Shown: in pieces, positions 1-20,613 of the stretch
Layout: each line of letters starts with the position of its first letter
Numbering within the stretch: position 1 is the stretch's first letter
IMG/VR virus record: IMGVR_UViG_3300042340_000252
Span: 1-20,613 of that record
Origin: a virus
Length of the DNA: 20,613 nucleotides
Reading direction: 5' to 3' (one strand)
Program-made: the position numbers and the translations under genes
Notes under the pieces: model-generated
The model's database searches: none
Told to the model about the DNA's origin: nothing
The model's input: only the letters and a program-made list of their open reading frames with translations

Positions 1-127
1 CATACTTACGTTAAGATATTATGTAAGCATGTAATCAAGGAATGTGGATGGAATCCTATTTGTCATTTTAGATTCTAGAATCTAAATCGACGAGTAGGAT
101 TGGACAGAGTGGGGGGGGGTGGCATAT
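1..127. repeat. Left terminal inverted repeat, 127 bp
   Basis: Bases 1-127 are the exact reverse complement of 20487-20613; identity stops at 128 (A here, T on the other side). It contains an imperfect inverted repeat at the very tip (1-9 against 23-31, 8 of 9 pairs), a 50-bp imperfect palindrome (52-101) and a G9 tract (111-119). No ORF crosses the outer 97 bases. The best start of the first gene (119) lies inside the repeat. It could be a true linear-genome terminus, one arm of an inverted repeat around an invertible or unique genome segment, or an assembly-graph overlap, since 127 is a common k-mer length. Confidence 0.97.
52..101. repeat. 50-bp imperfect palindrome in left repeat
   Basis: The arms 52-76 and 77-101 pair at 21 of 25 positions around a centre between 76 and 77. 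The inner 20 bases (67-86, TTTAGATTCTAGAATCTAAA) are a perfect palindrome. The outer ends AATCCTA and TAGGATT also pair. A weak -35-like TTGTCA (60-65) lies in the left arm, so the palindrome could be an operator over an inward promoter. A recombinase, resolvase or telomere-protein site would also fit. The function is unknown; only the symmetry is certain. Confidence 0.8.
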
Positions 128-1153
128 AACGAGGTGACTGTGCAAGGTTTATTAATAGAAGGTATGCTGTTTGCTAACTATAAACAATTAGCTACAGCTT
201 TAGGTGAAGAGCCGAAGTCAGGCAAATCAAGAGAATTGCAATTAGAACGCTGGAGTAAAGCATTCGCATGGCGTAAGAGAGGTAATAAGATAATCATCAC
301 AGAGATATTCGAAGGGCCAGATACACAAACATTGATAAGTAGACTAAGTTTGCTGAGTTTGTACAAACTTTTAATCATGGTCAGCGTGTATCCACAAATT
401 TTAAAAGATAGTGAAATTTCAAAAGCTGAAAATCAAAACTTCAATAATCCTGGAATTTTAGCTGGTGTAGAAAGGAGAAAACTTTTATACTGGCTGGGGA
501 TTATAAATAAGGATTGTTTTGAACGTATGGTGCAGAAGAAGGAAGATGCAGTAGAGAAGGAGTTTTTTCAAGCGCTGCGAAGTAAGAACTTTTACACAAT
601 ACTTGTAGCGTTGGAGCAGTTGCAGCAGGATAAAGTTCTGCATGTGAGTAAAAGCTACATGGTACAGAAGCAAGGTGAGTTTACTCTGTATCCTTCGGAA
701 GTTATGGAAACGGTGCAGATAGATGCAGCATACAGGGAAATTCTTAACTCTTACGGTTACATGAGTATGCAGGAAGTTTTCTTGAAAAAGACTTCTAAAA
801 CTTTTTACAAAGAGTTGGGGCAAGTGCTGAAAGTGAAGCATGGGATTCTGTTCCACGAGGAGAGTTATACTTTCGGAGGAGTTCCAGAGTATATGCTGCA
901 GTACTTACGAAGTATGGAAGGTTTTGATTTGTGTAAAATTGAAATTCAAAAATATCTCAATAGTAAAAGCGCTGCTCGGATGAAACTCTGGGCACAAGCA
1001 CAATGGAGAAATTATGTAGAAACTAAAGATATAGTATTTTCTAAAGATTGGAAAAACAAACAACTTCCAGATGACTTTGTAAATAAAATTGAAGATTTCA
1101 TTGGAAGGTACATTTACACAGAAACTTTTAGTTTGGAGAATCAAAATGGTTAA
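119..1153 (+). CDS. Hypothetical protein, 344 aa, start inside the terminal repeat
   Basis: The frame opens after a TAG at 95-97. The first usable start is GTG at 119, directly after the G9 tract, which could serve as a crude ribosome site. GTG at 140 or ATG at 164 are alternatives. The first ~65 residues (helix, a Lys/Ser-Gly-Lys-Ser stretch, then an Ile-rich strand ending in GP) resemble, from memory, a winged-helix-like N-terminal domain common in Firmicutes phage and plasmid proteins; the rest is mostly helical and unrecognised. It overlaps the dUTPase start by 8 nt, so the two are probably co-transcribed. It may bind DNA and, being next to the terminus, is a candidate initiator or terminus-binding protein; that is speculation. 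The gene could be cut at its 5' end if the true genome continues past the repeat. Confidence 0.7.
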   Translation: MAYNEVTVQGLLIEGMLFANYKQLATALGEEPKSGKSRELQLERWSKAFAWRKRGNKIIITEIFEGPDTQTLISRLSLLSLYKLLIMVSVYPQILKDSEISKAENQNFNNPGILAGVERRKLLYWLGIINKDCFERMVQKKEDAVEKEFFQALRSKNFYTILVALEQLQQDKVLHVSKSYMVQKQGEFTLYPSEVMETVQIDAAYREILNSYGYMSMQEVFLKKTSKTFYKELGQVLKVKHGILFHEESYTFGGVPEYMLQYLRSMEGFDLCKIEIQKYLNSKSAARMKLWAQAQWRNYVETKDIVFSKDWKNKQLPDDFVNKIEDFIGRYIYTETFSLENQNG

Positions 1154-1640
1154 ATTAGGTGCGCAGGTGATTAGATTGAATCCAGATGTTAATTTCCCTC
1201 TGCCGAAGTATGGTACAGATGGAAGCGCAGCTCTGGATTTGTATGCAAACATTGAGCATGATGAAGTGCTGTTTGCAGGTGAGAATAAAAAGATACCAAC
1301 AGGATTGAAGTTATGGCATGGTAATCCCGAATATGCAGGGGTGATTCTTCCACGGAGCAGTGGTGGTAGTGGTGGTATGAATCTTAAGAATCTTGTTGGT
1401 CTGATTGATTCAGACTACCAAGGTGAGTTGATTGTAAATGTCTGGAACAATAATGATGTAGGGAGTATTACAATACCAAGCTGGAAACGTGGTGTTGCGT
1501 TTGCACAGATTACTTTTGTACATGTTGCACAGTTAGTAATGGAAGAAGTTAAGGAATTCAGTGAAGAAACATTGCGTGGTTCTGGTGGGTTTGGGAGTAC
1601 AGACCACCTTGATATTAATTTTGGAATGGGAACTAAATAA
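1146..1640 (+). CDS. dut: dUTP diphosphatase (trimeric dUTPase)
   Basis: Hydrolyses dUTP to dUMP and pyrophosphate, which keeps uracil out of DNA and supplies dUMP to the thymidylate synthase encoded next. All five motifs of the trimeric family are present in order: motif 1 around residues 28-35 (AALDLYAN), motif 2 PRSSGG at 69-74, motif 3 GLIDSDYQGE at 85-94, motif 4 RGVAFAQI at 115-122 and the glycine-rich C-terminal motif 5 RGSGGFGST at 144-152. The length of 164 aa is normal. ATG 1146 is chosen over an in-frame ATG at 1089 because it follows GGAGA by 6 nt and because the family begins there; the longer form would carry 19 extra residues. The stop abuts the thyX start without a gap. Confidence 0.95.
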   Translation: MVKLGAQVIRLNPDVNFPLPKYGTDGSAALDLYANIEHDEVLFAGENKKIPTGLKLWHGNPEYAGVILPRSSGGSGGMNLKNLVGLIDSDYQGELIVNVWNNNDVGSITIPSWKRGVAFAQITFVHVAQLVMEEVKEFSEETLRGSGGFGSTDHLDINFGMGTK

Positions 1641-2513
1641 ATGAACATAACACAAACATTAGAAAAAGATGTACTGGATTATGGTTTTGTAAAACTTCTT
1701 AATTTAAGTGGGCCAACCAGAAGAGGTGAGCAGGTCTTTGATGCTGATGATGTTGACCCAGCACAAGTAGCAAGGATAAGTTTTGACAACTTTGAGCAGG
1801 ATAGAACTCTTGAGCAGGATGAAAGACTTTATGAATACCTGCTTTCCAACGGGCATAATACTCCAGTGGAAATGATCGAAACCTGGTGGCATATGAAAAT
1901 GCCTATCTTCGTAGCAAGGCAGTTTGTAAGGCATAGAACAGCTTGCATTAATGAAGTCAGCGCAAGGTATGCCACATTGCCTGAAGAATGGTATACTCCA
2001 GAAGATAAAAACGTTGGTATTAAGGGAGGCAGTAATAAGCAGGGAAGACTTCTGCTGTGGGATGAGCTGACTACAAAACAGAAAGATATTATAATTAAGT
2101 TTCGGTATAAACTTGACGACACTTGTCAGGAATCTTATAACGAGTATTTGTATTACTTAAACTCTGGCATAGCACCAGAACTTGCAAGATGCTTTCTTCA
2201 CGTAAACCATTACACTCACTGGATCTGGAAAATGGATCTTAGTAACCTGATGCACTTTATGAGTCTACGCTGCCACAGCCATGCACAGTGGGAAGCTCAG
2301 CAATATGGTGATGCAGTATATGAGTTGTTGAAGCAGTTCCTACCAAAAAGTATGCAACTGTTTGATGAATATAAAAGGAAAGCTACTCCACAGGAACTTA
2401 CTCATTTGCAGGAAGCTTTGTTGCTGTTGGATTACAATGCAGCACAATTTGATGAACCTGGAGAAGCGATGCAAACAGTGCGTAAGTTCTTTAAAAGACT
2501 GGGGGTGAAGTAA
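1641..2513 (+). CDS. thyX: Flavin-dependent thymidylate synthase ThyX
   Basis: Makes dTMP from dUMP with methylenetetrahydrofolate and FAD/NADPH. The ThyX signature RHR-x7-S is seen as RHRTACINEVS at residues 97-107, followed by ARY. The upstream GHNTPVEM (71-78) matches the usual GH-x-S/T-P-x-E segment, and the C-terminal AQWEAQQYG fits the AQWE-type substrate-binding helix. The length of 290 aa is slightly long for the family (about 220-250), with extra sequence at residues ~110-145 and a C-terminal helical tail. ATG 1641 directly follows the dUTPase stop, so translation is probably coupled. The dut-thyX pairing gives a self-sufficient dUTP to dTMP route without host ThyA. Confidence 0.95.
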   Translation: MNITQTLEKDVLDYGFVKLLNLSGPTRRGEQVFDADDVDPAQVARISFDNFEQDRTLEQDERLYEYLLSNGHNTPVEMIETWWHMKMPIFVARQFVRHRTACINEVSARYATLPEEWYTPEDKNVGIKGGSNKQGRLLLWDELTTKQKDIIIKFRYKLDDTCQESYNEYLYYLNSGIAPELARCFLHVNHYTHWIWKMDLSNLMHFMSLRCHSHAQWEAQQYGDAVYELLKQFLPKSMQLFDEYKRKATPQELTHLQEALLLLDYNAAQFDEPGEAMQTVRKFFKRLGVK

Positions 2514-2926
2514 TGGGTATGTCAATAAAAACAAACCCTGACAGTAATAAAACTACTATTATAACATCATTAGGTAGTTTATCATTCTTCCCAGAAGAGT
2601 GGGATTTACTTGTTAAAGCGCTGCAAGGCTTAGCTGCAGCACCTGAAAAAGTTTCAAATAAAGAAGAATTTCCACACTACTTTAAAGAACTACCTGCAGG
2701 AACTACTCATGTTGACATATACATGGTACTGGCTTTGTTTGATGTTACAGATCAAGCAATAGGACATGCAGTTAAGAAGTTAATGTGTCCTGGGCAGCGT
2801 GGTGATAAAAGTAAAATGCAGGATTTAGAGGAGGCTGTTAAAACTCTAAAGCGAGGTTTGGACGTGATGAAAGTTATAGAGGCATTGAAAGAGAGCCAAC
2901 AGAACCACTCTCTGCCTTCATCCTAA
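2513..2926 (+). CDS. Conserved phage-type hypothetical protein, 137 aa
   Basis: No catalytic motif is visible. The central and C-terminal parts (HYFKELPAGTTHVDIYMVL, then HAVKKLMCPGQRGDK and a regular helix) look like a family of small conserved proteins I recall from many proteobacterial phages, of unknown function. The start ATG overlaps the last base of the thyX stop (TAATG) and follows a GGGGGTGAAG stretch that can act as ribosome site; a second in-frame ATG lies two codons on. It is the last gene of the tightly packed left operon. Confidence 0.8.
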   Translation: MGMSIKTNPDSNKTTIITSLGSLSFFPEEWDLLVKALQGLAAAPEKVSNKEEFPHYFKELPAGTTHVDIYMVLALFDVTDQAIGHAVKKLMCPGQRGDKSKMQDLEEAVKTLKRGLDVMKVIEALKESQQNHSLPSS

Positions 2927-2936
2927 AGGTTTACTT

Positions 2937-3389
2937 ATGAACAGTCGCCAACGCTCAACGAAAGCCGAACGAATAGCGGCAAAATCCGTATTGAAGGGTA
3001 TATGGGAAAAAGCCTTTCAGGAAGGAAAATTTACCATCACTTATTCTGCTCAAGAAAAGGAAAATACGGAAAAATGCCGGATACTTCACCAAGCACTATG
3101 CGACTATAGAAAGGAGGTAAGGAAAAACCAGAGTAAAGATTTCGATCTTTTTCTCATTATTAACGCTTGTTCTATCTCTAAGAAAGGAGAGTTATGCATA
3201 GAAATAACCCGTAAACCTGGGGCGTTTAGTAATCGAACGTCTACAATTTTAGAATTGATTACAGAGTACCCAGAGTTAGGACTTAGTCCGAACCTCGAAA
3301 GCGGTACATTAGCAACTTCTAATATGCTCGGTTCAATTAATCGTGAGTTTGAAAATAATTTCAAAAACATGAAAAAATCACTTGCGTGA
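2937..3389 (+). CDS. Hypothetical protein, 150 aa
   Basis: Not recognised. The protein starts with a basic helix (RQRSTKAERIAAK), has a mixed middle and ends in a basic tail; no membrane segment or Cys cluster is seen. ATG 2937 follows AAAGG by about 8 nt. Codon choice looks different from its neighbours (more CGA, AAA TCC and AGG-type codons), which may mean a recent arrival. The promoter of the next gene overlaps its last few codons, so it closes the left transcription unit. Confidence 0.7.
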   Translation: MNSRQRSTKAERIAAKSVLKGIWEKAFQEGKFTITYSAQEKENTEKCRILHQALCDYRKEVRKNQSKDFDLFLIINACSISKKGELCIEITRKPGAFSNRTSTILELITEYPELGLSPNLESGTLATSNMLGSINREFENNFKNMKKSLA

Positions 3390-3408
3390 ATTAAGAAGTT
3401 TCTATAAT
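3382..3408 (+). promoter_or_regulatory. Sigma70-like promoter for the 197-aa gene
   Basis: A perfect -10 TATAAT (3403-3408) has TTGCGT (3382-3387) upstream with a 15-bp spacer; a 16-bp spacing to CTTGCG is the alternative. It lies at the end of the preceding gene and would start transcription near 3415, giving a ~55-nt leader before ATG 3471. The spacer is shorter than ideal, so strength is uncertain. Confidence 0.6.
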
Positions 3409-3416
3409 ATGAACCC

Positions 3417-3443
3417 ACGGTTTGAAAAAAGCCGTTTTTTAAT
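3417..3443 (+). terminator. Short hairpin plus T-run in the leader (terminator or attenuator)
   Basis: ACGGTTT (3417-3423) can pair with AAAGCCGT (3428-3435) with one bulged G, followed by a run of T then AATTT. It may end transcripts from the left operon. Because it lies just downstream of the predicted start site near 3415, it would also sit in the leader of the next gene and could act as an attenuator. The stem is weak. Confidence 0.45.
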
Positions 3444-3470
3444 TTAATCAAAATCCCAGAGGAAAATACC

Positions 3471-4064: not shown

Positions 4065-4085
4065 ACACCTCTGGGGTGTTGTTTT
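4064..4085 (+). terminator. Small hairpin with T-run after the 197-aa gene
   Basis: AACACC (4064-4069) pairs with GGTGTT (4075-4080) across a 5-base loop and is followed by GTTTT. It starts inside the stop codon of the preceding gene. It is probably the weaker first half of a tandem terminator. Confidence 0.5.
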
Positions 4086-4089
4086 AGGG

Positions 4090-4427: not shown

Positions 4428-4429
4428 AA

Positions 4430-6959: not shown

Positions 6960-7235
6960 ATGAAAGCAGCAAAGCTTTCGGTAACAGTTCCAGGGTATGT
7001 TATGCCAATGCTGGAATTAATCTTAACCCCAGAGTGGTGTCCTAATATGCCAAAAGGCAGCATGTCATCTTTGATAAGTAACCTTCTGCAGAAGTATTTA
7101 GAAGAATACTTCAACACAGATATTCTATCACTGATTGAATTTATGGAGAATAATCCAGAAATCAGTCTGGTAGAAATGACCAAGTATTTTGAAGATGCTC
7201 GTATTGAGCGTCTGGCACTGGAAGATGTGTTATGA
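6960..7235 (+). CDS. Putative ribbon-helix-helix-like small protein, 91 aa
   Basis: The N-terminal strand KLSVTVPGYVMPMLELIL followed by GSMSSLISNLLQKYLEEYF resembles phage proteins with a ribbon-helix-helix-like fold (beta strand, turn, amphipathic helix with a conserved Gly/Ser-x-Ser-S start). Such proteins often bind DNA as dimers. The C-terminal helix is acidic. It overlaps the helicase start by 4 nt (ATGA). A role as regulator of the nearby divergent control region is possible but is inferred only from fold resemblance and position. Confidence 0.7.
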   Translation: MKAAKLSVTVPGYVMPMLELILTPEWCPNMPKGSMSSLISNLLQKYLEEYFNTDILSLIEFMENNPEISLVEMTKYFEDARIERLALEDVL

Positions 7236-8626
7236 GTACAGAAAAAGAATTTAAACTGACTCCAAGCCAAGATGCAGCGATTAAAGACCTGTCAACCTGG
7301 TGGCAGATGAATAAAAACTCTGACGCACCTTCCTTTGTTAGAAATAACATTGTATTAAAAGGTGGCCCAGGTACAGGTAAAACATTCTTAGCTAAGTATT
7401 TTGCAGAACAACTGCCTGAGTGTGTTCCGTTATTTACTGCACCAACTAACGAGGCAGTAAGACAGCTGGAAATTTCTCTACAAGGAAAAAGTCCAACAAA
7501 AACCACTTACAGTGCCTTAGGTTTAAAACTAAGTATGCGCAGCTTTAAGCAAAAGATTTATCAAAGTAAACTTCCCAGTGATTTCGACAATTACAACTTG
7601 CTGGTTGTTGATGAATCATCTATGGCAGGTCTACGGGATAAAACTGAAAAAGGTGCTGCAGATGACCTGATGGATTATGTTCTAGGCTGCGGTATGCGAG
7701 TGATCTGGTTAGGTGATTGGGCGCAGCTTCCTCCAGTCAGTTCAACCACTGGTGAAAGTCCTGTGTTTGAGCAAAAATTTCCAGAAATTGAACTTTTGGA
7801 AGTTAAAAGGCATTCTGGTGACATATTGCAATTTGCCAGTATGATTAGGGAAGAATTGAAAAAACCTGTAAGAAACTTACCAAAAGAAATACCAGCTGGT
7901 GTTAGTATTAAAAACAGGGATTCTGCTGGTATGATGACTTTTACTGCAGATGAATTCCATGCGATCATAGAAGATCGGGCCAGAATCCTGACATGGACTA
8001 ATGGAGTTACAAAATACTCTAAAGTTCCTGGTGTTAATGAGTACAATACCAGAATACGCCATGCTTTATTTGGTGCAGAGCTAGCAGAAGAATCAGACAT
8101 CTGGCCATCAGATAGAATCCTGATGGCATCCCCTCTGATGAATACGGATGACCAAGAAAAACTAAGTCTGGAAAATTTAATGAGTGCTGAATGGAAAATG
8201 CTTGCTTCGGTAAATACCAGAGCAGAAGTTCTTTCCGTTGAACCCTGTACTATTCTTGGTGTTGAATGTCACAAAACACTGGTTGCCTTGGAAGGTGGTA
8301 CAGATTCTACTATTTACATTCCAACCAAAGCAGGACAATTAGTAAAAAGTGCTCAAGAAAAAATCCTGATGGATTTAGCAATTAAAGCTGGTGATGCTCA
8401 ACTTGCTGGTAAAGCTTGGACAGTTTATCACACTTACCGTCAGGCTTTTGCAGATGTTAAGCATACCTACTGCGTAACAACTCACCGCAGTCAGGGTAGT
8501 ACAATACCGCATGTTTTTGTTGATGTAGGAAATATTCTGCAGAACAGAGACAGATTGGTAGCTTTTAAGTCTTTGTATGTAGCCAGCACCAGGGCTGCTG
8601 AATCTTTAACTCTATGCCTGAGATAA
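7232..8626 (+). CDS. SF1 DNA helicase (Dda/RecD/Pif1-like)
   Basis: An ATP-driven helicase, probably 5'-3', for replication fork remodelling or recombination. Motifs in order: Walker A GPGTGKT (45-51), motif II VVDESS (126-130), motif III GDWAQLPPV (161-169), THRSQGST (417-424; the motif V/Va-type segment of UvrD/RecD-like proteins) and the C-terminal YVASTRA (449-455; motif VI with its arginine). The length of 464 aa equals T4 Dda-type enzymes. It overlaps the preceding gene by ATGA. No hexameric DnaB-type helicase is seen, so this is the only helicase in the window. Confidence 0.92.
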   Translation: MSTEKEFKLTPSQDAAIKDLSTWWQMNKNSDAPSFVRNNIVLKGGPGTGKTFLAKYFAEQLPECVPLFTAPTNEAVRQLEISLQGKSPTKTTYSALGLKLSMRSFKQKIYQSKLPSDFDNYNLLVVDESSMAGLRDKTEKGAADDLMDYVLGCGMRVIWLGDWAQLPPVSSTTGESPVFEQKFPEIELLEVKRHSGDILQFASMIREELKKPVRNLPKEIPAGVSIKNRDSAGMMTFTADEFHAIIEDRARILTWTNGVTKYSKVPGVNEYNTRIRHALFGAELAEESDIWPSDRILMASPLMNTDDQEKLSLENLMSAEWKMLASVNTRAEVLSVEPCTILGVECHKTLVALEGGTDSTIYIPTKAGQLVKSAQEKILMDLAIKAGDAQLAGKAWTVYHTYRQAFADVKHTYCVTTHRSQGSTIPHVFVDVGNILQNRDRLVAFKSLYVASTRAAESLTLCLR

Positions 8627-8630: not shown

Positions 8631-9119
8631 ATGGACATTAACCAAGCAATAAATACCCTGTATCAAGGTTATGTTTTAAAAGTTGTTTTTTGTGAATTAA
8701 TAATTACAGATGAAAAATCTTTAGCAGATAAAGTACGGTATTCGTACACTTCACCTGTGCCAGTACCTGCTGGAACAAAAGTAGTAGTAGAGTCTGGATT
8801 AAGTAATGCTGATAGAGCTGTATACCAAGTTGTTACTGTAGTTGAATGTGGTACTGAAGAATTGTTAGATTTATCTGCTAAGCACGTTTACCGTCCAATA
8901 GTAAGTCTTTTGGATACTGCAGAACATTTTGAACGCATCGAACAGATTGAAACTATCAAAAAAGGTTTCCAGCAAAAGATGCGTCAAAACTTAAGAAACC
9001 AGATAATGGAAGAATTAAAACAAGCACTGCCTGCTGATATTGATCTTACCTCCATAGTAGGCGAAGTTGCTAAGGAGCAGGAACCAATAGTAGAGTTACC
9101 TACTGAATTTATACTATGA
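8631..9119 (+). CDS. Hypothetical protein, 162 aa
   Basis: Not recognised. The N-terminal ~90 residues look like a small beta-rich fold (VPAGTKVVVESG, YQVVTVVE). Residues ~100-145 form an amphipathic helix (FQQKMRQNLRNQIMEELKQ) that could be a coiled coil or partner-binding arm. The start has only a weak ribosome site and is 4 nt after the helicase stop, so it probably relies on translational coupling. It overlaps the next gene by ATGA. Confidence 0.72.
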   Translation: MDINQAINTLYQGYVLKVVFCELIITDEKSLADKVRYSYTSPVPVPAGTKVVVESGLSNADRAVYQVVTVVECGTEELLDLSAKHVYRPIVSLLDTAEHFERIEQIETIKKGFQQKMRQNLRNQIMEELKQALPADIDLTSIVGEVAKEQEPIVELPTEFIL

Positions 9120-9436
9120 CTTTAGATTTCTTAGAAGCACCGGCAGGTGATTTTACTGACGATCAGGAAACACTTACACCAGAGCAATTTAGAGAACTTA
9201 CAGCACAGATTGAAGAACTAAGAACTAGACTTTCTTCTGGCGGTAACATAACTCTGGATGAAGCTAGGCAAATCGGTGTATGGTTCAGAGCTAGGCGACG
9301 AAAAGCGTTTTCTGTAATGAAAGAAAAGAACCCGCCAAAAGAACGAGCTACCAAAGCAGCAGGAACTAAAACTAAAAAAGTTCTTACTGCAGCAGAGCAA
9401 CAAGAAATACTTAACAAACTTTTAGGTGACTTATGA
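9116..9436 (+). CDS. Hypothetical basic protein, 106 aa
   Basis: An acidic N-terminus is followed by a helix (EQFRELTAQIEELRTRL), a conserved-looking TLDEARQIGVWFRARRRKAF segment and a Lys/Ala-rich tail. The E-A-R-x-I-x-x-W-F-R-x-R-R pattern recurs in small phage proteins of unknown function. It is coupled to both neighbours by 4-nt ATGA overlaps. Confidence 0.74.
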   Translation: MTLDFLEAPAGDFTDDQETLTPEQFRELTAQIEELRTRLSSGGNITLDEARQIGVWFRARRRKAFSVMKEKNPPKERATKAAGTKTKKVLTAAEQQEILNKLLGDL

Positions 9437-9681: not shown

Positions 9682-9917
9682 AAGAATTTATAGACATGGG
9701 GGTGCTGCCAGTAATGATACAACTGGCAATAGCATTCGTAGTTTCTTATGTTTTTGTGCTGGTAGTAATGGGGCCAGTGATTAACAAAAGAGTAGCAAAG
9801 CAGTGGATTTATGCCAGCTTTTCTAACAAATTAGATATTATCATGTTCTGGCATGTATTGCTGATCAGTATGATAAGTGTAATTATTCACAATGTTTTAG
9901 TCTTTGCAGGAGTTTAG
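9678..9917 (+). CDS. Small membrane protein with two predicted spans, 79 aa
   Basis: Hydrophobic segments at residues ~8-32 and ~54-77 flank a basic loop (NKRVAKQW), giving a two-span inner-membrane protein, probably with both ends on the same side. The ribosome site AAGGAG is strong and the start overlaps the previous stop. The role is unknown: phage two-span proteins of this size include holins and superinfection-exclusion proteins, but a holin would be odd in the middle of a replication operon. Confidence 0.72.
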   Translation: MKEFIDMGVLPVMIQLAIAFVVSYVFVLVVMGPVINKRVAKQWIYASFSNKLDIIMFWHVLLISMISVIIHNVLVFAGV

Positions 9918-9918
9918 T

Positions 9919-10893
9919 ATGGCACTTAAAACACTATTTCCTTTGGTTATAGACAGCACAATGCTTATGGAAGCTGATGACTGTCCTATGGCTTTCTTCC
10001 GCAAGTATCTGCAGCACTTAAGTAGTGGTTACGAAAGTACAGACCTCATTGCAGGTAAAGCCTTCGCTCGCGGTCTGGAAGTTACAAGGAAAGCCTATTT
10101 CAATGACGATGCTGATCCTGAGTTTGCAATTGCAGCTGGTGTTGAAGCTCTGATAGAATCTTATGGCGACCATGAACCTTTTTCTGCTAAAAAAACAGCA
10201 GAAAAAATGTGCAGTGCTTTAGAACTGTACTTTATGCATTATCCACTGGGTATTGATGATGTAGTGCCAGCAAAACTCTCAAACGGTGAATATGCTATTG
10301 AATACAGTTTTGCACAGGAACTACCGTTTGAGCATCCAGATATTCCAGGACTGCCAATCATAATTACTGGCCGTGCTGATATGTTAGCAGAGTATGCTGG
10401 TAGGTTATGGGTAGTGGATGAAAAAACTACTGGTTCTGCTTTTACAAAAGACTGGCCTAAACAATGGGATACTCGTGGACAGTTCAGTACCTATCCTTGG
10501 GGGCTGAAAAAAGATGGTATTCCAGTAGCAGGTGCTATCATTCGTGGTGTGAGTATGGCTGCAAAAGATATTAAGTTCCAGCAATGCGAGTCAATCCGTG
10601 GTGACTGGCAACTTGATATTTGGGAGTTCCAGATGCTTAAAAAAGTAGAAGCCCTTTTGCAGAAGTATACAGAATGGAAAGCTTCTGGTAAACATCCAAG
10701 TTACTATTTCTTTGGTAACTGGGCATCAAGCTGTATGAAATACTTTAGGCCATGTCAGTTCCAAGACCTATGCAGAAGTAGAACATCTGAACAATTCTTG
10801 GAAAGCCAGTACGACCAGTATATCTGGTTGCCACATAAACAAGAACGTATGGAACTTAACACATACCTGGACTCAATAGGATATTCAAAATGA
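9919..10893 (+). CDS. PD-(D/E)XK nuclease with Fe-S-type cysteines (Cas4/RecB-like)
   Basis: A probable DNA exonuclease for recombination or end processing. The nuclease core shows GRAD (151-154), then DEKT (167-170) and Q188-x3-Y192, matching the motifs of RecB/Cas4-type nucleases. One Cys near the N-terminus (C22) and three near the C-terminus (C272-x6-C279-x5-C285) fit the 4Fe-4S staple of AddB/Cas4-like proteins. The length is 324 aa. ATG 9919 is chosen because AGGAG lies 6 nt upstream; an upstream TTG (9904) is unlikely. It overlaps the following Sak4-like ATPase by ATGA, so the two are probably partners. Confidence 0.88.
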   Translation: MALKTLFPLVIDSTMLMEADDCPMAFFRKYLQHLSSGYESTDLIAGKAFARGLEVTRKAYFNDDADPEFAIAAGVEALIESYGDHEPFSAKKTAEKMCSALELYFMHYPLGIDDVVPAKLSNGEYAIEYSFAQELPFEHPDIPGLPIIITGRADMLAEYAGRLWVVDEKTTGSAFTKDWPKQWDTRGQFSTYPWGLKKDGIPVAGAIIRGVSMAAKDIKFQQCESIRGDWQLDIWEFQMLKKVEALLQKYTEWKASGKHPSYYFFGNWASSCMKYFRPCQFQDLCRSRTSEQFLESQYDQYIWLPHKQERMELNTYLDSIGYSK

Positions 10894-11813
10894 CAGAACA
10901 AACAGAAATAAAACCTTTTTACGATGGTAAACCTGTTACTGAAATAGATTATAGTAATTATCCAGCTATTTTAGAGAACTTAGATAGAGCTAAAACTTTT
11001 AAAACTCTAATCTATGGCGAAGCTGGTACAGGTAAAACCTGCTCAATACGTACTCTACTAAATACTGGGCAAAAAGTACGCTTCTTAGCCGCAGAAAATA
11101 ACGCATTATCTGGTATAGCAGCAGCTCTTCGTCTGTGGCAAACTGAGCAAAAGAAAACCGGCAAACTTGAGCTTGACCCAGAACAATTTGCTGTAATGAT
11201 ACCAACTAGACCAAAGCGGGGCATTGCTGATATAATCAAAAACCAAACTAAATTCCTTGACCTGGCTCTTGACAAGCAAACTACAACTGCTGATCCTGAG
11301 CGTAGAAAGTACACTCGCTATTTAGAAGTTTTGAAATCTACCAGTGCTTTTGTTGATACTACCTCTGGTAAAAACTTCGGTAACGTAGAAGATTGGGGTG
11401 CTGATACTACTTTTGCAGTAGACTCACTTACAATCATCTGCGAAGCTATTGTACAAGGTACTGTAGGTGGTAAACTTGCTACTACTCAGCAGGAATGGGG
11501 TATCATGCAGAAAACTGTTATTGAATTTATGAGATTCCTAACAGAAGATTTACGTTGTAATGTTGTAATACTGGGCCATCCTACGAAAGAAACTGACCAA
11601 TTAAACGGTGGGCAAAAAATCTACCCTGCGAATTTAGGTCAAGCTCTGAATAATCTGTTGCCCAGCTACTTCACTGAAGTTCTTTACTCCTATCGCAGGG
11701 GCAAAGATTTCTTATGGTCAACTCAACATAATCAAGCTGTAACCAGACAAACAGTGTTACCACTGAGTAATGAGTTACAGCAAGATTTTGCTCAATTCTT
11801 TAAAGGAAATTGA
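10890..11813 (+). CDS. RecA-fold ATPase, Sak4-like single-strand annealing/recombination protein
   Basis: The Walker A motif GEAGTGKT is at residues 43-50. A Walker B-like FAVDSL is at 175-180. A sensor-type strand NVVILGHP lies further on, typical of the phage RecA/Sak4-like NTPase group (AAA_24-like). The length of 307 aa fits. It sits between a Cas4/RecB-like nuclease and an SSB-like protein, the usual neighbourhood of Sak4. It probably promotes strand annealing or exchange with that SSB. This assignment rests on motifs and context. Confidence 0.82.
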   Translation: MTEQTEIKPFYDGKPVTEIDYSNYPAILENLDRAKTFKTLIYGEAGTGKTCSIRTLLNTGQKVRFLAAENNALSGIAAALRLWQTEQKKTGKLELDPEQFAVMIPTRPKRGIADIIKNQTKFLDLALDKQTTTADPERRKYTRYLEVLKSTSAFVDTTSGKNFGNVEDWGADTTFAVDSLTIICEAIVQGTVGGKLATTQQEWGIMQKTVIEFMRFLTEDLRCNVVILGHPTKETDQLNGGQKIYPANLGQALNNLLPSYFTEVLYSYRRGKDFLWSTQHNQAVTRQTVLPLSNELQQDFAQFFKGN

Positions 11814-12613: not shown

Positions 12614-14005
12614 ATGTCAGAAGTAATGTTTGTAAAGATTTCGGAAATTAAAGTACCACCTAACAGGTTTCGTCAATACTTTTCTGACAAAAATTTGGGT
12701 GATTTGCAGGATAGTATAAGCTCAGGTATGGGGCTTATCAATGCAATCACTCTGAAACATAACATGGAGATTTCTACTGGAGAATCCAGACTTAAAGCAA
12801 TTACTCTACTGCATGATATAGGGCAGCCAGTCTTTTACCACGGCGAACGTGTCCCAGAAGGCTGTATTCCTGCGCTGATAATATCTTCTTCACTAGAAGA
12901 GTTAGACTATCTGCAAGCAGAACTACAGGAAAATACTTGCAGAGAAAACTTCTCCTTTATTGAGGAAGCACAAGCTGTAGCCAAAATCGCTGCAATAAAA
13001 CAAGCAATGATTGACGCTACAAAAGTGAAAGAAAAACCTGTATTTGTTCTTGGGGTTCCACTGAAGAAAATAAGTAAGGAAGCTATCCAAGAAACTGCTA
13101 AACAAGTTTACGAAGGTAAATCTGGGGAATACTACGATCAGTCAGTAAAAGATTCTCTTAAGATTGTTACCTTCATGGAAAGCAATCCTGACAAAGCACA
13201 GCAAATTCTTAAAGCTAAGGATAAGAAAGAAGCAGTATCAATTATGCGTAGAGCTGAAGAATCTGACACCCGCAGCAGGTTAGCCTTAGCTCAAGGTAAA
13301 TCTTTCAACAGCAGTATTCACACAGTAATCAATGGTGACTGTCTGGAAGAATTAACAAAACTACCTGCAAAAAGCTTTGATGTGTGCTTGACAGACCCAA
13401 TCTATGGTATTAATGCTGGAAACTTTGGTAATGCTGCAGGTAAGATGGAAAATCTATCTCATAACTATGATGATAGTCCAGAGAACTTTAGAGCAATACT
13501 GAAACCAGCTCTACAGCTTGTAAGCAAAGTTCTTAAAGACAGAGCACATATTTATCTGGCCTGCGATATTCGTAATTACTTCACATTGTGTGAGTTTCTT
13601 ACTGCTTCTAATATGCCTGGTAATCCCTGGAAGATAACCAACGCACCATTCATCCAGTACAAATTAGCTGGTGGTCGTATTCCTAGACCTGGATTCACAC
13701 CACGCAGAAGTTATGAGCTCTGGCTTTATGCTTACAGAGGTGAAAAACAGGAATATAAATGTATAAATGACGTAATTGAATGCGTCAGTGATAAAACAGA
13801 AACCCATGGTGCAGGTAAACCAAAAGACCTACTCAAAACATTCTTAAGTAGAAGCTGTATGCCTGGGGATACTGTACTCGACTTCATGGCTGGTACTGGA
13901 AGCATTCTGCCTGCTGCACATGAACTTAAAATCAAAGCAACTGCTATTGAAATTTCACAAGAATACTATGGCAGATGTTTGGAAAGATTGAAAGAATTAA
14001 AATAG
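12614..14005 (+). CDS. ParB-like nuclease domain fused to DNA methyltransferase, 463 aa
   Basis: The N-terminal ~130 residues resemble a ParB/Srx fold: RFRQYFSDKN, then STGESRLKAI (54-63) in place of the usual GERR, then QENTCRENFSFIEEAQA (105-121). The C-terminal ~220 residues form an N4-cytosine/N6-adenine methyltransferase of the beta order: motif IV TDPIYG (260-265, a variant of DPPY) before motif I LDFMAGTGS (422-430), followed by AIEISQEYYGRCLERL. Such fusions are known in phages, where they may protect phage DNA. No restriction enzyme is nearby, so it looks like an orphan methylase. The start follows TGGAG. The second Pro of DPPY is Ile here, which may affect target-base preference. 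Confidence 0.88.
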   Translation: MSEVMFVKISEIKVPPNRFRQYFSDKNLGDLQDSISSGMGLINAITLKHNMEISTGESRLKAITLLHDIGQPVFYHGERVPEGCIPALIISSSLEELDYLQAELQENTCRENFSFIEEAQAVAKIAAIKQAMIDATKVKEKPVFVLGVPLKKISKEAIQETAKQVYEGKSGEYYDQSVKDSLKIVTFMESNPDKAQQILKAKDKKEAVSIMRRAEESDTRSRLALAQGKSFNSSIHTVINGDCLEELTKLPAKSFDVCLTDPIYGINAGNFGNAAGKMENLSHNYDDSPENFRAILKPALQLVSKVLKDRAHIYLACDIRNYFTLCEFLTASNMPGNPWKITNAPFIQYKLAGGRIPRPGFTPRRSYELWLYAYRGEKQEYKCINDVIECVSDKTETHGAGKPKDLLKTFLSRSCMPGDTVLDFMAGTGSILPAAHELKIKATAIEISQEYYGRCLERLKELK

Positions 14006-14039: not shown

Positions 14040-16499
14040 ATGATAGATGCAGATTCTCTGGTTTACATCCCAAAAGCAAAATTTCTACGCCAACGCAGCA
14101 TCATGCTTATTGCTGACTGCCCACTTGAGCAAGAAGTTAAAAAGAAAGCAGCATTCTCTTCACAGAGTGCTGCCTCTATGTTCAATGAACTCAATAAAGT
14201 TGGGGTACAGCGCCTTCATATTCACACTTCTTATTTGTTCAACTTCCGCCCAGAAAAAGCAGATTTAAATGCTTTGTTTCACATAACTGGTTTACCTGTT
14301 AGTGAGTACACCTTCTGGCCTCAATCCAAGAAAGACAGTATTCTTAATTTTGCGTATAATGACCTAATAAACCTGCGTGAAGAAATCAAGGAAGTAAATC
14401 CATCTTTGATTATTTGCACAGGTCGCTGGGCACTTTACTTTCTTACTGGAGAAACAACTTTAGCAGATACTCGTAAGTCACCCTGGGGAACTTTAACTAA
14501 GTGGAGAGGTTCACATCTGCAGTTAGGTTCCTTCTGGGAATACACTGACCCTCATGTAGTGTTACCAATCTACCCACCGACTGCTGCTTTTCAACTACCA
14601 GAACAATCAGTAGTAATTCGTCAAGATTACATTCGTGCTGGTATCTTAAGTAAAGCAGCAGTTCAAGGTAATATTCGTGACTATGTAGAACACCTGCAGG
14701 ATGTAACTTACATAACTTCTCCAACTTTTAAACAAGTAAAAGACTGGCTCACCAGAGAACTGCTTTGTTTAGAACAAGGTGAAAAAGAATATGCTGTTGA
14801 CGTTGAGACTGTAGCAGGTTTTCATGATTGTATTGGTATTGCATCTTCAAGCACTGAATGTATCTGCATACCTTGGGCAACTATGAAAAATCCAGCTTAT
14901 TGGAGTGAAGCAGAAGAAGTAGAACTGATTTATCTGCTACATACTTTCTTATCCCATCCAAACTGTAAGCACATAGGCCAGAATTACACCTATGACATTC
15001 AGTACGAATGGAGAGATTTACTTGTTAATGCATATCCTGCATTCGACACTATGGTAGCACAGCATGCAATGTTTGCTGGTCTTGAGAAAAAGCTAGCTTT
15101 CCTTTCTTCTCTATATTCCAAAATTCATAGATACTGGAAGGATGAAGGAAAACGTACTGCTTCAAGCACCGATAAGCAACGCTGGATTTACAACTGTAAA
15201 GACTGTTGCAGAACCTACGAAATAGCTCAAGTACAAAAAAGAATGTTATCCGCTTCACCACAGAACATTCAAAATGTATTCAAAACCCAGTGTTATGAAA
15301 CCTTACCAACCATAGTAAGAATCATGCGTAGAGGTTTAGATACAGATACTTTCACAAAGAATGCTCTGTATAAGGAACTCGTACACGCTATGGAAGAACT
15401 GCGTAAAGAACTAGATTACATAGTAGGTGAACCTTTTAACCCGCTGTCTCCTGACCAAAAGAAAGCACTATTCTATGATCTATTTGACTTACCTACTCAG
15501 TATGATCCAAAAACAAAACAACCTACACTGGGAGCACAAGCACTTATAAACTTATCTGAGCAGTTCCCGCTGATACGTCCGTTTGCCGAGCGTTGCAGTG
15601 AGTATGGTAATTTGAAAACATTTAGTTCTACTTTCCTAAAAGCAGCAACTGACATTGATGGAATGATGCGAACTTCTTACAATGTATGTGGAACAGATAC
15701 CTACAGGCTGAGCAGCAGTGAAGATGCTTTTGGTACTGGTCTTAATCTGCAAAATATTCCCAAAGGAGGTAGGACAGTAACTGGTAGAATTCTTCCTAAC
15801 TGCAGAGCATTATTCATACCACCACCAGATCACGATTTCTTCGACATTGACCTGGATAGCGCTGACTTACGAATAGTAGTTGCTGAAAGTGGTGCATCTG
15901 GACTGCAAGAAATGCTTGATGCAGGTTTAAAACCTTATGTTGAAATGATGAAGGAATACTACAATGATCCTACAAAATCAAAACACTCTGACGAATACAG
16001 AATCTTTAAAGGTTTTGCGCATGGTACTCATTACCTTGGTTCTGCTGCTGGGCTTGCTGCACGCTTGGGGCTTCTGGTACATGAAATCGACAAACTTCAG
16101 AAATGGTACTTTGGGCGGAATCCAGAAATCGCAAAATGGCACAAAGAACTTAAATCACAAGTCCTCAACAGAGGCTGGATTGAAAACGTGTTTGGTTATA
16201 GACGGTACTTCTGGAATAAGAAGGAACCCACCATCATGCAGATCGCAGCGGCCTGGAAACCACAAAGCACGGTAGGACTTTTAATTAACAAAGGTGCTGT
16301 AGCTTTGGATAAGTATGAACCAGATGTTCAGGTTCGTTTGCAGGTTCATGACTCTCTTGCTGGTACTTTTCCAACAGCTAAGAGTTATTTACCTGATGTA
16401 ATTAAATCCCGCTGTGAGATACCACTACCTTATGAAGTACCAATAATTATTCCTGTAGATATTAAAACTAGCTCAGTTAGCTGGGGAGCCTGTGGATGA
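14040..16499 (+). CDS. Family A DNA polymerase with N-terminal uracil-DNA-glycosylase-like domain, 819 aa
   Basis: The replicative polymerase. Residues ~20-200 resemble family 4 uracil-DNA glycosylase (IMLIADCPLEQE at 21-32, SLIICTGRWALYFLTGE at 122-138, LPIYPPTAAFQLPE at 175-188). The catalytic GEAPG-type motif is lost, so it is probably non-catalytic. SPO1-type polymerases are known to carry such a domain. Proofreading motifs are intact: D254-x-E256, N315-x3-D319 and Y384-x3-D388. Polymerase motif A is DLDSADLR (604-611), motif B RIFKGFAHG (654-662) and motif C VHDS (769-772). In motif B the usual Tyr/Phe is His661. No 5'-3' exonuclease domain is present. The ribosome site before ATG 14040 is weak (TGGATC). 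Confidence 0.93.
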   Translation: MIDADSLVYIPKAKFLRQRSIMLIADCPLEQEVKKKAAFSSQSAASMFNELNKVGVQRLHIHTSYLFNFRPEKADLNALFHITGLPVSEYTFWPQSKKDSILNFAYNDLINLREEIKEVNPSLIICTGRWALYFLTGETTLADTRKSPWGTLTKWRGSHLQLGSFWEYTDPHVVLPIYPPTAAFQLPEQSVVIRQDYIRAGILSKAAVQGNIRDYVEHLQDVTYITSPTFKQVKDWLTRELLCLEQGEKEYAVDVETVAGFHDCIGIASSSTECICIPWATMKNPAYWSEAEEVELIYLLHTFLSHPNCKHIGQNYTYDIQYEWRDLLVNAYPAFDTMVAQHAMFAGLEKKLAFLSSLYSKIHRYWKDEGKRTASSTDKQRWIYNCKDCCRTYEIAQVQKRMLSASPQNIQNVFKTQCYETLPTIVRIMRRGLDTDTFTKNALYKELVHAMEELRKELDYIVGEPFNPLSPDQKKALFYDLFDLPTQYDPKTKQPTLGAQALINLSEQFPLIRPFAERCSEYGNLKTFSSTFLKAATDIDGMMRTSYNVCGTDTYRLSSSEDAFGTGLNLQNIPKGGRTVTGRILPNCRALFIPPPDHDFFDIDLDSADLRIVVAESGASGLQEMLDAGLKPYVEMMKEYYNDPTKSKHSDEYRIFKGFAHGTHYLGSAAGLAARLGLLVHEIDKLQKWYFGRNPEIAKWHKELKSQVLNRGWIENVFGYRRYFWNKKEPTIMQIAAAWKPQSTVGLLINKGAVALDKYEPDVQVRLQVHDSLAGTFPTAKSYLPDVIKSRCEIPLPYEVPIIIPVDIKTSSVSWGACG

Positions 16500-16645: not shown

Positions 16646-16652
16646 GAGTCTT

Positions 16653-17152: not shown

Positions 17153-17154
17153 TT

Positions 17155-17388
17155 ATGCAAAAAATAAACACAGAAACATTCACAAAGAATCCTTCCGTAG
17201 CTGCTCGGATGAAAACAGTAATACTTTCAGTGGCGATAGCTAGAGAACTGCAATCTAACTGGCGTGCTTGTGCTGCAAAGTATGAACGTGCAACTTTAGG
17301 TTCAGTTAAGAAATTCTGTAAAGAACTGCAAACCTTCTCTGATGAAGCTCTGGATAGAGCCATTCACTCACTTACACTGGAGTTATAA
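17155..17388 (+). CDS. Hypothetical helical protein, 77 aa
   Basis: Not recognised. The protein is basic and helical (VAARMKTVILSVAIARELQ, KKFCKELQTFSDEALDRAI). It has no clear Shine-Dalgarno site and starts 2 nt after the previous stop, so translation by re-initiation is likely. Confidence 0.65.
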   Translation: MQKINTETFTKNPSVAARMKTVILSVAIARELQSNWRACAAKYERATLGSVKKFCKELQTFSDEALDRAIHSLTLEL

Positions 17389-17389
17389 C

Positions 17390-17656
17390 ATGGTACATTT
17401 TGCTACTCGTGGTGGTGATAAGAGAGTTCTAGGCTACATTGTTAATGCCCAGAGACCTGTCACCCGTAATGAAATAAAGAAAGCTTTGGTTGCTTATATC
17501 TCTAATGACGGTGTGAATATCAGCTTAAGCTCTTTGTTACACAAACAAATGATTTCTGAAACTAACTATAAATTCAAACCTACAGAACTTGGTATTGAAA
17601 AGTACAAAGAAATTTCAACTAGAGGTACAGCAAATGATCTGCCTATATTGCAATAA
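17390..17656 (+). CDS. Putative winged-helix DNA-binding protein, 88 aa
   Basis: The start ATG 17390 is preferred (one base after the upstream stop, with GGAG before it) over an in-frame ATG at 17342. Residues ~12-75 show helix, RPVTRNEIKKAL (a helix-turn-helix second helix), LSSLLHKQMI and a short hairpin with YKFKPTELG, the usual layout of a small winged helix. It could be a transcription regulator of the operon, but no operator is identified. Its end overlaps the next gene by 23 nt. Confidence 0.65.
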   Translation: MVHFATRGGDKRVLGYIVNAQRPVTRNEIKKALVAYISNDGVNISLSSLLHKQMISETNYKFKPTELGIEKYKEISTRGTANDLPILQ

Positions 17657-17831
17657 AGAAATTACTGATCCATGGGTTAACCAGCTAAGGCACAAACCTT
17701 GTAATAGAAAGTTCCGTGCTGATACTATTCGGGCGAAACGATTAGCAGAAAGGGAAGAAAGATTACTCTGCAGTAAACCTCTGCATGATGAATCGTGTCT
17801 AAGCGCAACCAAGTTTAACCATGTACCCTAG
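17634..17831 (+). CDS. Small zinc-finger-like protein, 65 aa
   Basis: ATG 17634 follows AGAGGT; a longer in-frame reading from 17589 is less likely. C3-x2-C6 and H20-x2-C23 give a compact CCHC-type metal site, followed by a highly basic helix (RKFRADTIRAKRLAEREER). This looks like a small nucleic-acid-binding protein. It overlaps the previous gene by 23 nt in a different frame, an unusually long overlap for this operon. Confidence 0.68.
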   Translation: MICLYCNKEITDPWVNQLRHKPCNRKFRADTIRAKRLAEREERLLCSKPLHDESCLSATKFNHVP

Positions 17832-17909
17832 CTTACCTTAACACTCAAACGATGCCCAGAGAACGGCTCTGTTAAGCCCTATTTCACCACTTCATACGGC
17901 CAAACCACT

Positions 17910-18143
17910 ATGAAACCACTATTTATCATTACACTACTACTAACCCTAACCAGCTGCGGCTATCAACATTTTACAAAACCTGGTGTATCTTCTTACACTC
18001 AGCAGGAAGATGAAATGCGCTGTGAATCACTTGCTTATCAACAAGCAACTGCACTGCATGGACAAAACTCTATGATTGAACTTGCAGTGCTTCCACGGAA
18101 GTCTGAATGTATGCAGCGTCTTGGTTATACTGGAGTGCGATGA
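17910..18143 (+). CDS. Small lipoprotein, 77 aa
   Basis: A type II signal sequence: hydrophobic residues 4-14 followed by lipobox LTSC with the lipidated Cys at 16. The residue after it is Gly, not Asp, so outer-membrane sorting is expected in a Gram-negative host. The mature part has two more Cys (in EMRCES and SECMQRLGY) that may form a disulfide; such C...CM-x-x-x-GY ends are common in small proteobacterial lipoproteins. It is preceded by a 78-bp gap and a weak ribosome site. It could be a superinfection-exclusion lipoprotein, or an Rz1-like spanin part without a partner; the role is unknown. Confidence 0.8.
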   Translation: MKPLFIITLLLTLTSCGYQHFTKPGVSSYTQQEDEMRCESLAYQQATALHGQNSMIELAVLPRKSECMQRLGYTGVR

Positions 18144-18313
18144 TGCCAACAGATATAAAGTTCAACTGGACGGTAAGTAATTTTAGATTTCTTATTTACA
18201 AATTTGAAACAGGTGGAGTATTTAAATACACTGTATTCGAAGCTTGGAAAAAGAAACCTTCTACTACCTTATGGTTATTCTGGTTCTCATTCACTTTTAG
18301 GAGAGTAAAATGA
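18140..18313 (+). CDS. Hypothetical aromatic-rich protein, 57 aa
   Basis: ATG 18140 overlaps the lipoprotein stop (ATGA), with TGGAG upstream; ATG 18143 is equally possible. The product is rich in Phe, Trp and Lys (FNWTVSNFRFLIYKF, LWLFWFSFTF) and may associate with the membrane, as its gene follows the lipoprotein. Not recognised. Its last codons lie in the first copy of an 18-nt duplicated junction. Confidence 0.62.
   Translation: MMPTDIKFNWTVSNFRFLIYKFETGGVFKYTVFEAWKKKPSTTLWLFWFSFTFRRVK
18295..18312 (+). repeat. 18-nt direct repeat, copy 1 (gene junction)
   Basis: TTTTAGGAGAGTAAAATG is repeated exactly at 18536-18553. Each copy contains the end of one gene, the ribosome site GGAG and the start codon of the next. 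The 241-bp unit between them holds one small gene, as if that gene had been inserted or duplicated at the junction. Confidence 0.85.
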
Positions 18314-18549
18314 CAGAAACTGGTACTAAACCTCAACTTTTGCATTGGTTTTGTTTTTCATACACTGGATCCTGTAATACAACAGGAAAATCAGTTACAG
18401 CATCTACTTACACTGGATATCTTAGCAGGAAAATCACAAAACCGATTATAGAAAAAAATAAGGTATTTGCTGGTGTAACAGAAGATTCTGTTTTAATAGG
18501 AGTTTTCTATCTCGGTAGGATGCCAAGAAATGAATTTTTAGGAGAGTAA
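18310..18549 (+). CDS. Hypothetical protein, 79 aa, between direct repeats
   Basis: Not recognised. The Thr/Ser/Lys-rich N-terminal half includes two Cys (CFSYTGSCN), followed by a hydrophobic strand (SVLIGVFYLGRM). The gene lies between two exact 18-nt junction repeats, so it behaves like an inserted cassette. Its good ribosome site (AGGAG) and lack of frame damage suggest that it is expressed. Confidence 0.65.
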   Translation: MTETGTKPQLLHWFCFSYTGSCNTTGKSVTASTYTGYLSRKITKPIIEKNKVFAGVTEDSVLIGVFYLGRMPRNEFLGE

Positions 18550-18553
18550 AATG
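18536..18553 (+). repeat. 18-nt direct repeat, copy 2 (ligase start)
   Basis: Exact copy of 18295-18312, supplying the ribosome site and ATG of the ligase gene. Confidence 0.85.
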
Positions 18554-19468
18554 CAAGTAACAAAACCACAGAAAGCTGTTAACGCTGAAATGTCCCACAT
18601 TAGATTCCCCTGTATTGTGTTCCCAAAAATCGACGGAGTACGCGGGATCAGAATCTTACCCCATTTCACTGGACGAACCCTCAAACCTTTTGCTAACTGG
18701 TGGCTTACAGATACATTAAGTAACCCAGTTCTACATGGGCTTGATGGTGAACTGGCGAATGGGTCTGTTACTTCCAGCTCACTGTGTAGGGATACTACTT
18801 CCTACTGCAACAGCTTTGCTCAAAAGACCTCCAGTGTAATCCCTGCATGGTATATCTTTGACTACATCACTCCTGAAACAGCACATCTTCCTTACCACTC
18901 CCGCTGGGAACTTGCGCAGAAGTTGGTTCAGAAACTCACCAAAGATACTGATGCTTTTTACTTTTTGAAACTTGTTCCTCATGCAACCATCTGCAACACG
19001 CTGGAAGAAGTGGAAGCCTGCCATCAAGACTTCATATCTCAGGGTTTTGAGGGTACTGTAGGAAGGGATTTCTTCCGCCCACATAAAAACGGCAGAGCAA
19101 CTACGCGTGAAAATGGGTTCTGGAGGATTAAAGATTTTGTTTCAGACGAAGGGGTCATCATAGGTTATGAAGAAGGTCAAACAAACCTTAATCCTGCAAT
19201 CATTAATGAACTGGGCTACACTGAGCGCAGTTCCCACCAGGACAACAAAATACCAAACGGTATGATTGGAAACCTGAAGATCTGGTACAAAGGTCGGGAA
19301 GAAACTATCAGCACTGGTTCAATGACTCATGCTGAACGCACTCTCTATTTCAATGATCCTTCACTTATTTTGAATAAAATCTGCACCTTCACTCACATGC
19401 CTTATGGTGCTAAAGATAAATTACGATTTGCGCAGTTTGCAAATTTCCGTTGTGACCCTGACCTTTAA
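18551..19468 (+). CDS. ATP-dependent DNA ligase (T7-like, small)
   Basis: Seals nicks in DNA through a lysyl-AMP intermediate. Motif I is KIDGVR (26-31), with Lys26 as the likely adenylated residue. Motif III/IIIa-type segments are DGE (65-67) and YIFDYI; motif IV is FEGTVGRD (166-173) and motif V WRIKDF (191-196). The C-terminal ~95 residues are consistent with an OB-fold domain. The length of 305 aa is close to the minimal phage ligases. AGGAG lies 7 nt upstream within the 18-nt repeat. It is expected to join Okazaki fragments or recombination products. Confidence 0.92.
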   Translation: MQVTKPQKAVNAEMSHIRFPCIVFPKIDGVRGIRILPHFTGRTLKPFANWWLTDTLSNPVLHGLDGELANGSVTSSSLCRDTTSYCNSFAQKTSSVIPAWYIFDYITPETAHLPYHSRWELAQKLVQKLTKDTDAFYFLKLVPHATICNTLEEVEACHQDFISQGFEGTVGRDFFRPHKNGRATTRENGFWRIKDFVSDEGVIIGYEEGQTNLNPAIINELGYTERSSHQDNKIPNGMIGNLKIWYKGREETISTGSMTHAERTLYFNDPSLILNKICTFTHMPYGAKDKLRFAQFANFRCDPDL

Positions 19469-19479
19469 GGAATTAAATT

Positions 19480-19656
19480 ATGACTGAGAAGAAAGACCTA
19501 ACTGCTTACTGGTGCACTTGCGCCACTGATCCAACCAAATGCTTAGGATGTGCTGTTGATAAACTTGTTGCTCAGGTGTTAGGCCCAATTGGTACAGCTT
19601 TCCTAGAGCATAGGACTTATAAAATTATTCAACCACAACAGAAGGAGAGGAAATGA
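19480..19656 (+). CDS. Tiny Cys-rich protein, 58 aa
   Basis: ATG 19480 follows AAGGA. Four Cys in C12-x-C14-x6-C21-x2-C24 make a compact probable zinc site, followed by a hydrophobic helix and a basic tail. The stop overlaps the next start by 4 nt (ATGA), which supports a real gene. The function is unknown. Confidence 0.7.
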   Translation: MTEKKDLTAYWCTCATDPTKCLGCAVDKLVAQVLGPIGTAFLEHRTYKIIQPQQKERK

Positions 19657-19859
19657 GCCTACGACACGACTCTGAACTGATGATAGAATCAATAGCTATT
19701 GCAACTGCAACTAGATGGCAGCGTTTGTATAACGAATACCAAACTGTAGAAAAGATCACTCCGAAAGAAGGCTGGCCACCGGAACTATGTTTCTACGTTA
19801 CTAACCGCTATGCACCTGGCTGCAACAACAAAGACCCTAACTACCGACCTGACTTATGA
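19653..19859 (+). CDS. Hypothetical protein, 68 aa
   Basis: Not recognised. The N-terminal half is one helix (MIESIAIATATRWQRLYNEY); the C-terminal half holds WPPELCFYV and a YAPGCNNKDPNYRPD tail. GGAGAGG precedes the ATG, and both ends overlap neighbours by ATGA, so it is probably made together with the exonuclease. Confidence 0.66.
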   Translation: MSLRHDSELMIESIAIATATRWQRLYNEYQTVEKITPKEGWPPELCFYVTNRYAPGCNNKDPNYRPDL

Positions 19860-20464
19860 AACCAATTAAAGCAATCATCCTTGATACAGAAACTACAGGT
19901 TTCTCTTCCCCAGAACCTGTTGAAATCGCCTACCTTAAACTAGGACACCTACATGACTATACTCCAGAAACTTTCCTTTCTGGTCATGACTATTTTGAAC
20001 AAAGATTTAACCCAGGAAAACCAATTGATTATTCTGCATTCCAAATACATGGAATCAGTAAACAAATGGTACTGGGCTGCCCTCAGTATCACATTGATCT
20101 TTTGGAGCTTCCTGACTCTGTTGAGTATCTTATCTGTCACAATATATCTTTTGATTTACGAGTTTTGAAATGTAAAAATTCAGGTTTTGATTCTGACATT
20201 CATTTGAATTTTAAACCGATCTGCACCATGAAACTTGCAAAGCGACTGTGGCCGGATTTACCTTCGTACAAACTGGTGGCTATTATGGAAGAGCACTTTC
20301 CAGCTATTTCAACCAAATTAACTGAAAAAGCCCATGGTGCTTACAGGGATACTCTCTTGTGCTTACTGATTATATGGAAAGCTGTGCAGGATTATGAACT
20401 AACATCCTGGGAGGAACTTCACCAACTGTGTGAGCAGAAGGTAAAGAAAATTAAAAAAGAATAA
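19856..20464 (+). CDS. DEDDh 3'-5' exonuclease (DnaQ-like), 202 aa
   Basis: Removes nucleotides from 3' ends. The exo I motif is D10-T-E12 (ILDTETTG), exo II HNISFD (95-100) and exo III H160-GAYR-D165, giving the DEDDh set. The IHGIS segment (64-68) is the usual conserved element of the DnaQ group. Since the polymerase already has its own proofreading domain, this may act in recombination, nucleotide recycling or RNA-end processing. It is the last gene, ending 22 bp before the right inverted repeat. Confidence 0.92.
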   Translation: MKPIKAIILDTETTGFSSPEPVEIAYLKLGHLHDYTPETFLSGHDYFEQRFNPGKPIDYSAFQIHGISKQMVLGCPQYHIDLLELPDSVEYLICHNISFDLRVLKCKNSGFDSDIHLNFKPICTMKLAKRLWPDLPSYKLVAIMEEHFPAISTKLTEKAHGAYRDTLLCLLIIWKAVQDYELTSWEELHQLCEQKVKKIKKE

Positions 20465-20486
20465 ATTGCTTGATGAATTTTGTAAA

Positions 20487-20613
20487 ATATGCCACCCCCC
20501 CCCACTCTGTCCAATCCTACTCGTCGATTTAGATTCTAGAATCTAAAATGACAAATAGGATTCCATCCACATTCCTTGATTACATGCTTACATAATATCT
20601 TAACGTAAGTATG
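20487..20613. repeat. Right terminal inverted repeat, 127 bp
   Basis: Exact reverse complement of 1-127, including the C9 tract (20495-20503). The inner edge lies 22 bp after the exonuclease stop. The 22 bp between are AT-rich, with no clear terminator. Confidence 0.97.
20513..20562. repeat. 50-bp imperfect palindrome in right repeat
   Basis: The mirror copy of the palindrome at 52-101. The 20-bp perfect core is at 20528-20547, and the arms match at 21 of 25 positions. Confidence 0.8.

Follow-up and report, generated by a model that had tools for sequence, protein, structure and literature searches.

A 20.6-kb viral contig with perfect 127-base inverted ends is probably the replication arm of a two-arm PolA phage

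Gene content and the inverted ends

The window, the whole 20,613-base stretch of viral DNA analysed here, has a GC content of 39%, and all of its proteins that matched families of known function are assigned to replication or nucleotide metabolism (Table 1). For the assigned genes, this agrees with the replication-only content described in the initial annotation, which had also reported the lack of a family B polymerase; the corresponding profile (PF03175) was absent from the window and the polymerase that is present belongs to family A (PF00476). A profile search of the window returned no family match for a terminal protein, though the many small open reading frames (ORFs) without a family could hide one, and no structural PHROG was found among the ORFs scanned. 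The N terminus of the polymerase (14040-14600) has a weak match to the uracil-DNA-glycosylase superfamily (PF03167, E = 9e-5) that narrowly misses the curated cut-off. Based on the GAGG motif that precedes its GTG codon, the first gene probably starts outside the left repeat.

Table 1. Genes and repeat elements of the window
Feature	Coordinates	Strand	Remarks
Inverted repeat, left copy	1..127	+	Noncoding; ends 12 bases before GTG 140, where the first gene probably starts
Near-palindrome, 50 nt	52..101	+	25-nt arms, perfect 20-bp core TTTAGATTCTAGAATCTAAA
First gene, phrog_36702	140..1153	+	Function unknown; GAGG at 131-134 before GTG 140
dUTPase	1149..1640	+	
ThyX-type thymidylate synthase	1641..2513	+	
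Dda-like SF1 helicase	7232..8626	+	Homologues in the same order in relatives
PD-(D/E)XK nuclease	9904..10893	+	
Sak4-like AAA ATPase	10890..11813	+	
ParB-like N terminus with N6/N4 DNA methyltransferase	12614..14005	+	
Family A DNA polymerase with 3'-5' exonuclease	14040..16499	+	PF00476
ATP-dependent DNA ligase	18551..19468	+	
RNase T-type exonuclease	19856..20464	+	Final gene before the right repeat
Inverted repeat, right copy	20487..20613	-	Noncoding; begins 22 bases past the stop of the last gene (20464)
Near-palindrome, second copy	20513..20562	-	Same 50-nt element, in the right repeat

A comparison of the two ends of the window confirmed the perfect 127-bp inverted terminal repeats that had been proposed: the terminal segments are 100% reverse complementary, with identity breaking off abruptly from base 128. 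The second-best inverted pair recovered in a search of the window spans 40 nt at 70% identity, and 127 matching bases cannot be the product of chance. The repeat, a noncoding element of 127 bases or more that contains the 50-base hairpin, is probably genuine, and tRNA and Rfam searches returned no match. A run of nine G residues inside the repeat (positions 111-119; C in the right copy) could have caused a local loss of coverage in short reads. From the sequence alone, bases 1 and 20613 need not be the ends of the molecule.

As RNA, the near-palindrome of the left copy is predicted to fold into a hairpin of -22.8 kcal/mol on the + strand (with two G-U pairs), compared to -16.2 kcal/mol on the opposite strand. 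Neither strand has a U tract downstream of the hairpin, and the element was not affirmed as a canonical intrinsic terminator.

Relatives and the two-arm layout

The whole window had no match amongst phages by megablast, while the polymerase led to a closely related fragment of 11.3 kb (L005), with 94-97% identity at the DNA level, and additionally to many divergent phages. The conserved gene order of the window and its relatives (helicase, PD-(D/E)XK nuclease, Sak4, ParB-methyltransferase, and PolA) recurs as the same cassette in records of 38-41 kb (G003, G004, G005, G008, G009, and the GenBank record MW202489). The relatives of this length carry an extra structural arm with a terminase and a portal. 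In MW202489, an early arm of ~19.2 kb and a late arm of ~20.7 kb are convergently transcribed, such that the 20.6-kb window is about the size of one arm.

A primase is strongly conserved in the group, with a strong profile match in all 11 of the relatives checked and a position directly after PolA where the maps could be read. Even with every filter disabled, the same profile gave no match in the window, and the portal protein of the group was likewise not found, leaving a record that looks truncated. Due to the lack of both the portal and the primase, the window looks incomplete and resembles one arm of a two-arm genome; the missing primase could lie in the absent part. The description of the window as a phage replication arm is supported by the cassette that it shares with one arm of the ~38-41-kb phages, and the contig is a divergent new member of this known kind of two-arm PolA phage.

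Several features vary within the group. Most of the ORF at 8631-9119 (window positions 8636-9119) is missing from L005, where the alignment skips from 8635 to 9120, a strain-level indel. The L005 polymerase (L005:7439-10828) possesses an in-frame insert of ~311 aa at FAHG/THY (equivalent to 16024/16025 in the window, where it is absent) that begins with CVTGDHEILT and finishes with GHISVTGN. In all likelihood the insert is an intein located close to motif B of the polymerase; no intein (Hint) Pfam match was returned for it. In several relatives (G006, G007, G008, and G009; L036-L045), two adjacent genes together encode the family A polymerase, with the break at approximately residue 577-585 of the window protein, as might arise from a true split, a frameshift, or a split intein. 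The ParB-like/methyltransferase fusion is kept beside the polymerase throughout the group. An ORF of 180 bases in MW202489 (L050:39992-40171) annotated as 'class d beta-lactamase oxA-58' is far too short for the enzyme, and the label is probably a misannotation.

Several relatives have a strong hairpin immediately behind their final early gene, at the convergence of the two arms. Such a hairpin occurs after the primase at 12% of 91 loci, compared to 0% of random stretches, a trend rather than a count of independent cases, as the loci include copies of the same record. The score of the window hairpin falls within the range of those in the relatives. G008 possesses its own hairpin in two copies, evidence that duplication of these elements can occur within the group. 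Being noncoding and holding a hairpin comparable to the terminator hairpins of some relatives, the window repeat may be a duplicated arm-boundary terminator. A terminator role for the window hairpin is only a guess, due to the missing U tract.

Sequences that might belong to the remainder of the genome were sought in several ways, in collections that may leave out other records from this genome. The repeat core was not found elsewhere in exact scans of viral and of bacterial and archaeal contigs, and scans of viral contigs with the first gene, the last gene, and ThyX recovered no relative spanning the window ends. Profile scans for the portal and the primase returned no late-arm partner near 39% GC, with the lowest GC content at 45.6% amongst the portal loci and 40.3% amongst the primase loci (L157); L157 has no similarity to the repeat.

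Repeat length and the origin of the ends

The length of the repeat is identical to the largest k-mer of JGI metaSPAdes assemblies, for which a run of this type used k = 33, 55, 77, 99, and 127 (PMC10434106), and the authors of CheckV have observed terminal repeats accumulating at the k lengths of assemblers (PMC8116208). We infer that the record was assembled at k = 127. Across 37 long relatives (30 plus G003-G009, the latter of 30.6-45.5 kb), nine overlap directly at their termini by exactly 127 bases, six do so by 114-123 bases, and 22 show no overlap, while an inverted terminal repeat was found in none of the 37. In toy de Bruijn graphs constructed at k = 127 from the core of the window, the unitig measured 20,613 bp and its two ends shared exactly 127 bases in inverted orientation, an outcome that was the same for true repeats of 127 to 1500 bases, whether in circular two-arm or in linear genomes. 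As such, the exact length reports the assembler and sets no more than a lower limit of 127 bases on the underlying repeat. Length alone cannot separate a circular from a linear genome, a distinction that instead comes from the missing late arm and primase and from the layout of the relatives.

Taken with that layout, the contig is most probably the replication arm of an ordinary two-arm phage of ~40 kb, for which the assembly broke at an inverted repeat and 127 is the assembler overlap. The source would be a divergent (39% GC) dsDNA phage whose early, or replication, arm lies in the genome between two inverted copies of a repeat of 127 bases or more. The assembler would merge these copies into one node and halt there from either side, with each contig end keeping exactly k = 127 bases of the node in opposite orientations; identical repeats of this length at both arm boundaries are expected to break a short-read assembly in such a fashion. 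In this reading, the left copy is the k-mer vertex at which the assembly graph terminates, and it holds the inner 127 bases of a repeat that we infer to continue outward beyond the contig ends. The ends would be graph break points instead of molecular termini, and the late (structural) arm and the primase would lie beyond them. The fragment reading draws support from the repeat edges, which adjoin a gene start and a gene stop in a window whose interior is only ~4% noncoding. Counted against it are the missing late-arm contig, the lack of a second contig with the repeat core, the absence of a long inverted repeat from the eight long relatives searched, the hairpin without a U tract, and the capacity of a linear genome with a real inverted terminal repeat (ITR) of at least 127 bases to yield the same ends.

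This last point is the basis for a rival reading as a truly linear phage, satellite, or plasmid replicon of ~20.6 kb or slightly longer, with real ITRs, a family A polymerase, and an undescribed end mechanism, as would fit the perfect inverted ends, the content of only replication genes, and the noncoding repeat with its hairpin. It is nevertheless very improbable given that the repeat length equals k, that none of the 37 long relatives has inverted ends, that the window lacks both a family B polymerase and the primase of all relatives checked, and that long relatives with the same cassette have a structural arm. The narrower version, in which such a replicon has ITRs of at least 127 bases and no structural genes and is possibly a satellite of a related phage, is marginally less probable again. 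If true, a linear PolA replicon with ITRs would break the usual tie of inverted ends to protein-primed family B polymerases; the novelty that the initial annotation had suggested along these lines is unsupported, as the length is that of the k-mer, the ends of the relatives are direct or without repeats, and the late genes and primase are missing.

A chimeric join, in which a library or amplification chimera attached the left-end sequence in inverted orientation to the right end of a genome without an inverted repeat, is unlikely, though less so than a linear replicon. A single chimeric node would likewise leave exactly k bases, and misassembly is the explanation later given for the inverted end repeats of roseophage SIO1 (PMC6775973), but both repeat edges are intergenic in a sequence that is 96% coding, where a chimera formed at random would be expected to interrupt a gene in most cases. 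Least credible of all is a linear phage with N15-like hairpin telomeres, for which the 50-nt near-palindrome, present with its perfect 20-bp core in both ends, would be the protelomerase target. The palindrome is imperfect, no protelomerase family was matched amongst the window ORFs scanned, and its two flanking sequences (51 and 26 nt) are different, such that head-to-head joining would not yield the observed ends; this explanation was rejected.

With the assembly break as the preferred explanation, the contig offers a clear example of a fragment passing as an 'ITR' contig, and comparing the repeat length with the assembler k provides a cheap test for contigs mistaken in this way. In a survey of IMG/VR by CheckV, amongst contigs with a completeness estimate, the high-quality standard was reached by 33.2% of ITR contigs compared to 90.0% of contigs with direct terminal repeats (DTRs) (PMC8116208).

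Comparison with known systems

Perfect inverted repeats at both sequence ends are shared between the window and the protein-primed ITR phages, including the Salasmaviridae (e.g., phi29) and the Tectiviridae (e.g., PRD1). These phages possess a family B polymerase and a terminal protein, whereas the polymerase of the window belongs to family A and no family B polymerase was found.

The cobaviruses (roseophage SIO1 and the Lentibacter phages ICBM1-3) resemble the proposed genome of the window in having two arms and a length of ~40 kb, a likeness of layout only, and none of them occurred amongst the polymerase matches listed. Their two arms are separated by a bidirectional terminator and their genomes have direct terminal repeats of 159-173 bp (PMC6775973). 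The inverted repeats of SIO1 were judged most likely to represent misplaced ends or misassembly, its relatives having direct terminal repeats (PMC6775973).

The nearest parallels are in MW202489 (Bacteriophage sp. ctMlz233, 40,250 bp) and the IMG/VR record 3300022744_000013 (G009, 40,531 bp), which share the five-gene order of the window at ~29-54% protein identity. Both are full-length and possess the structural arm and the primase that the window is without, while the window differs from them in its lower GC content (39%) and in its additional ThyX, dUTPase, ligase, and exonuclease.
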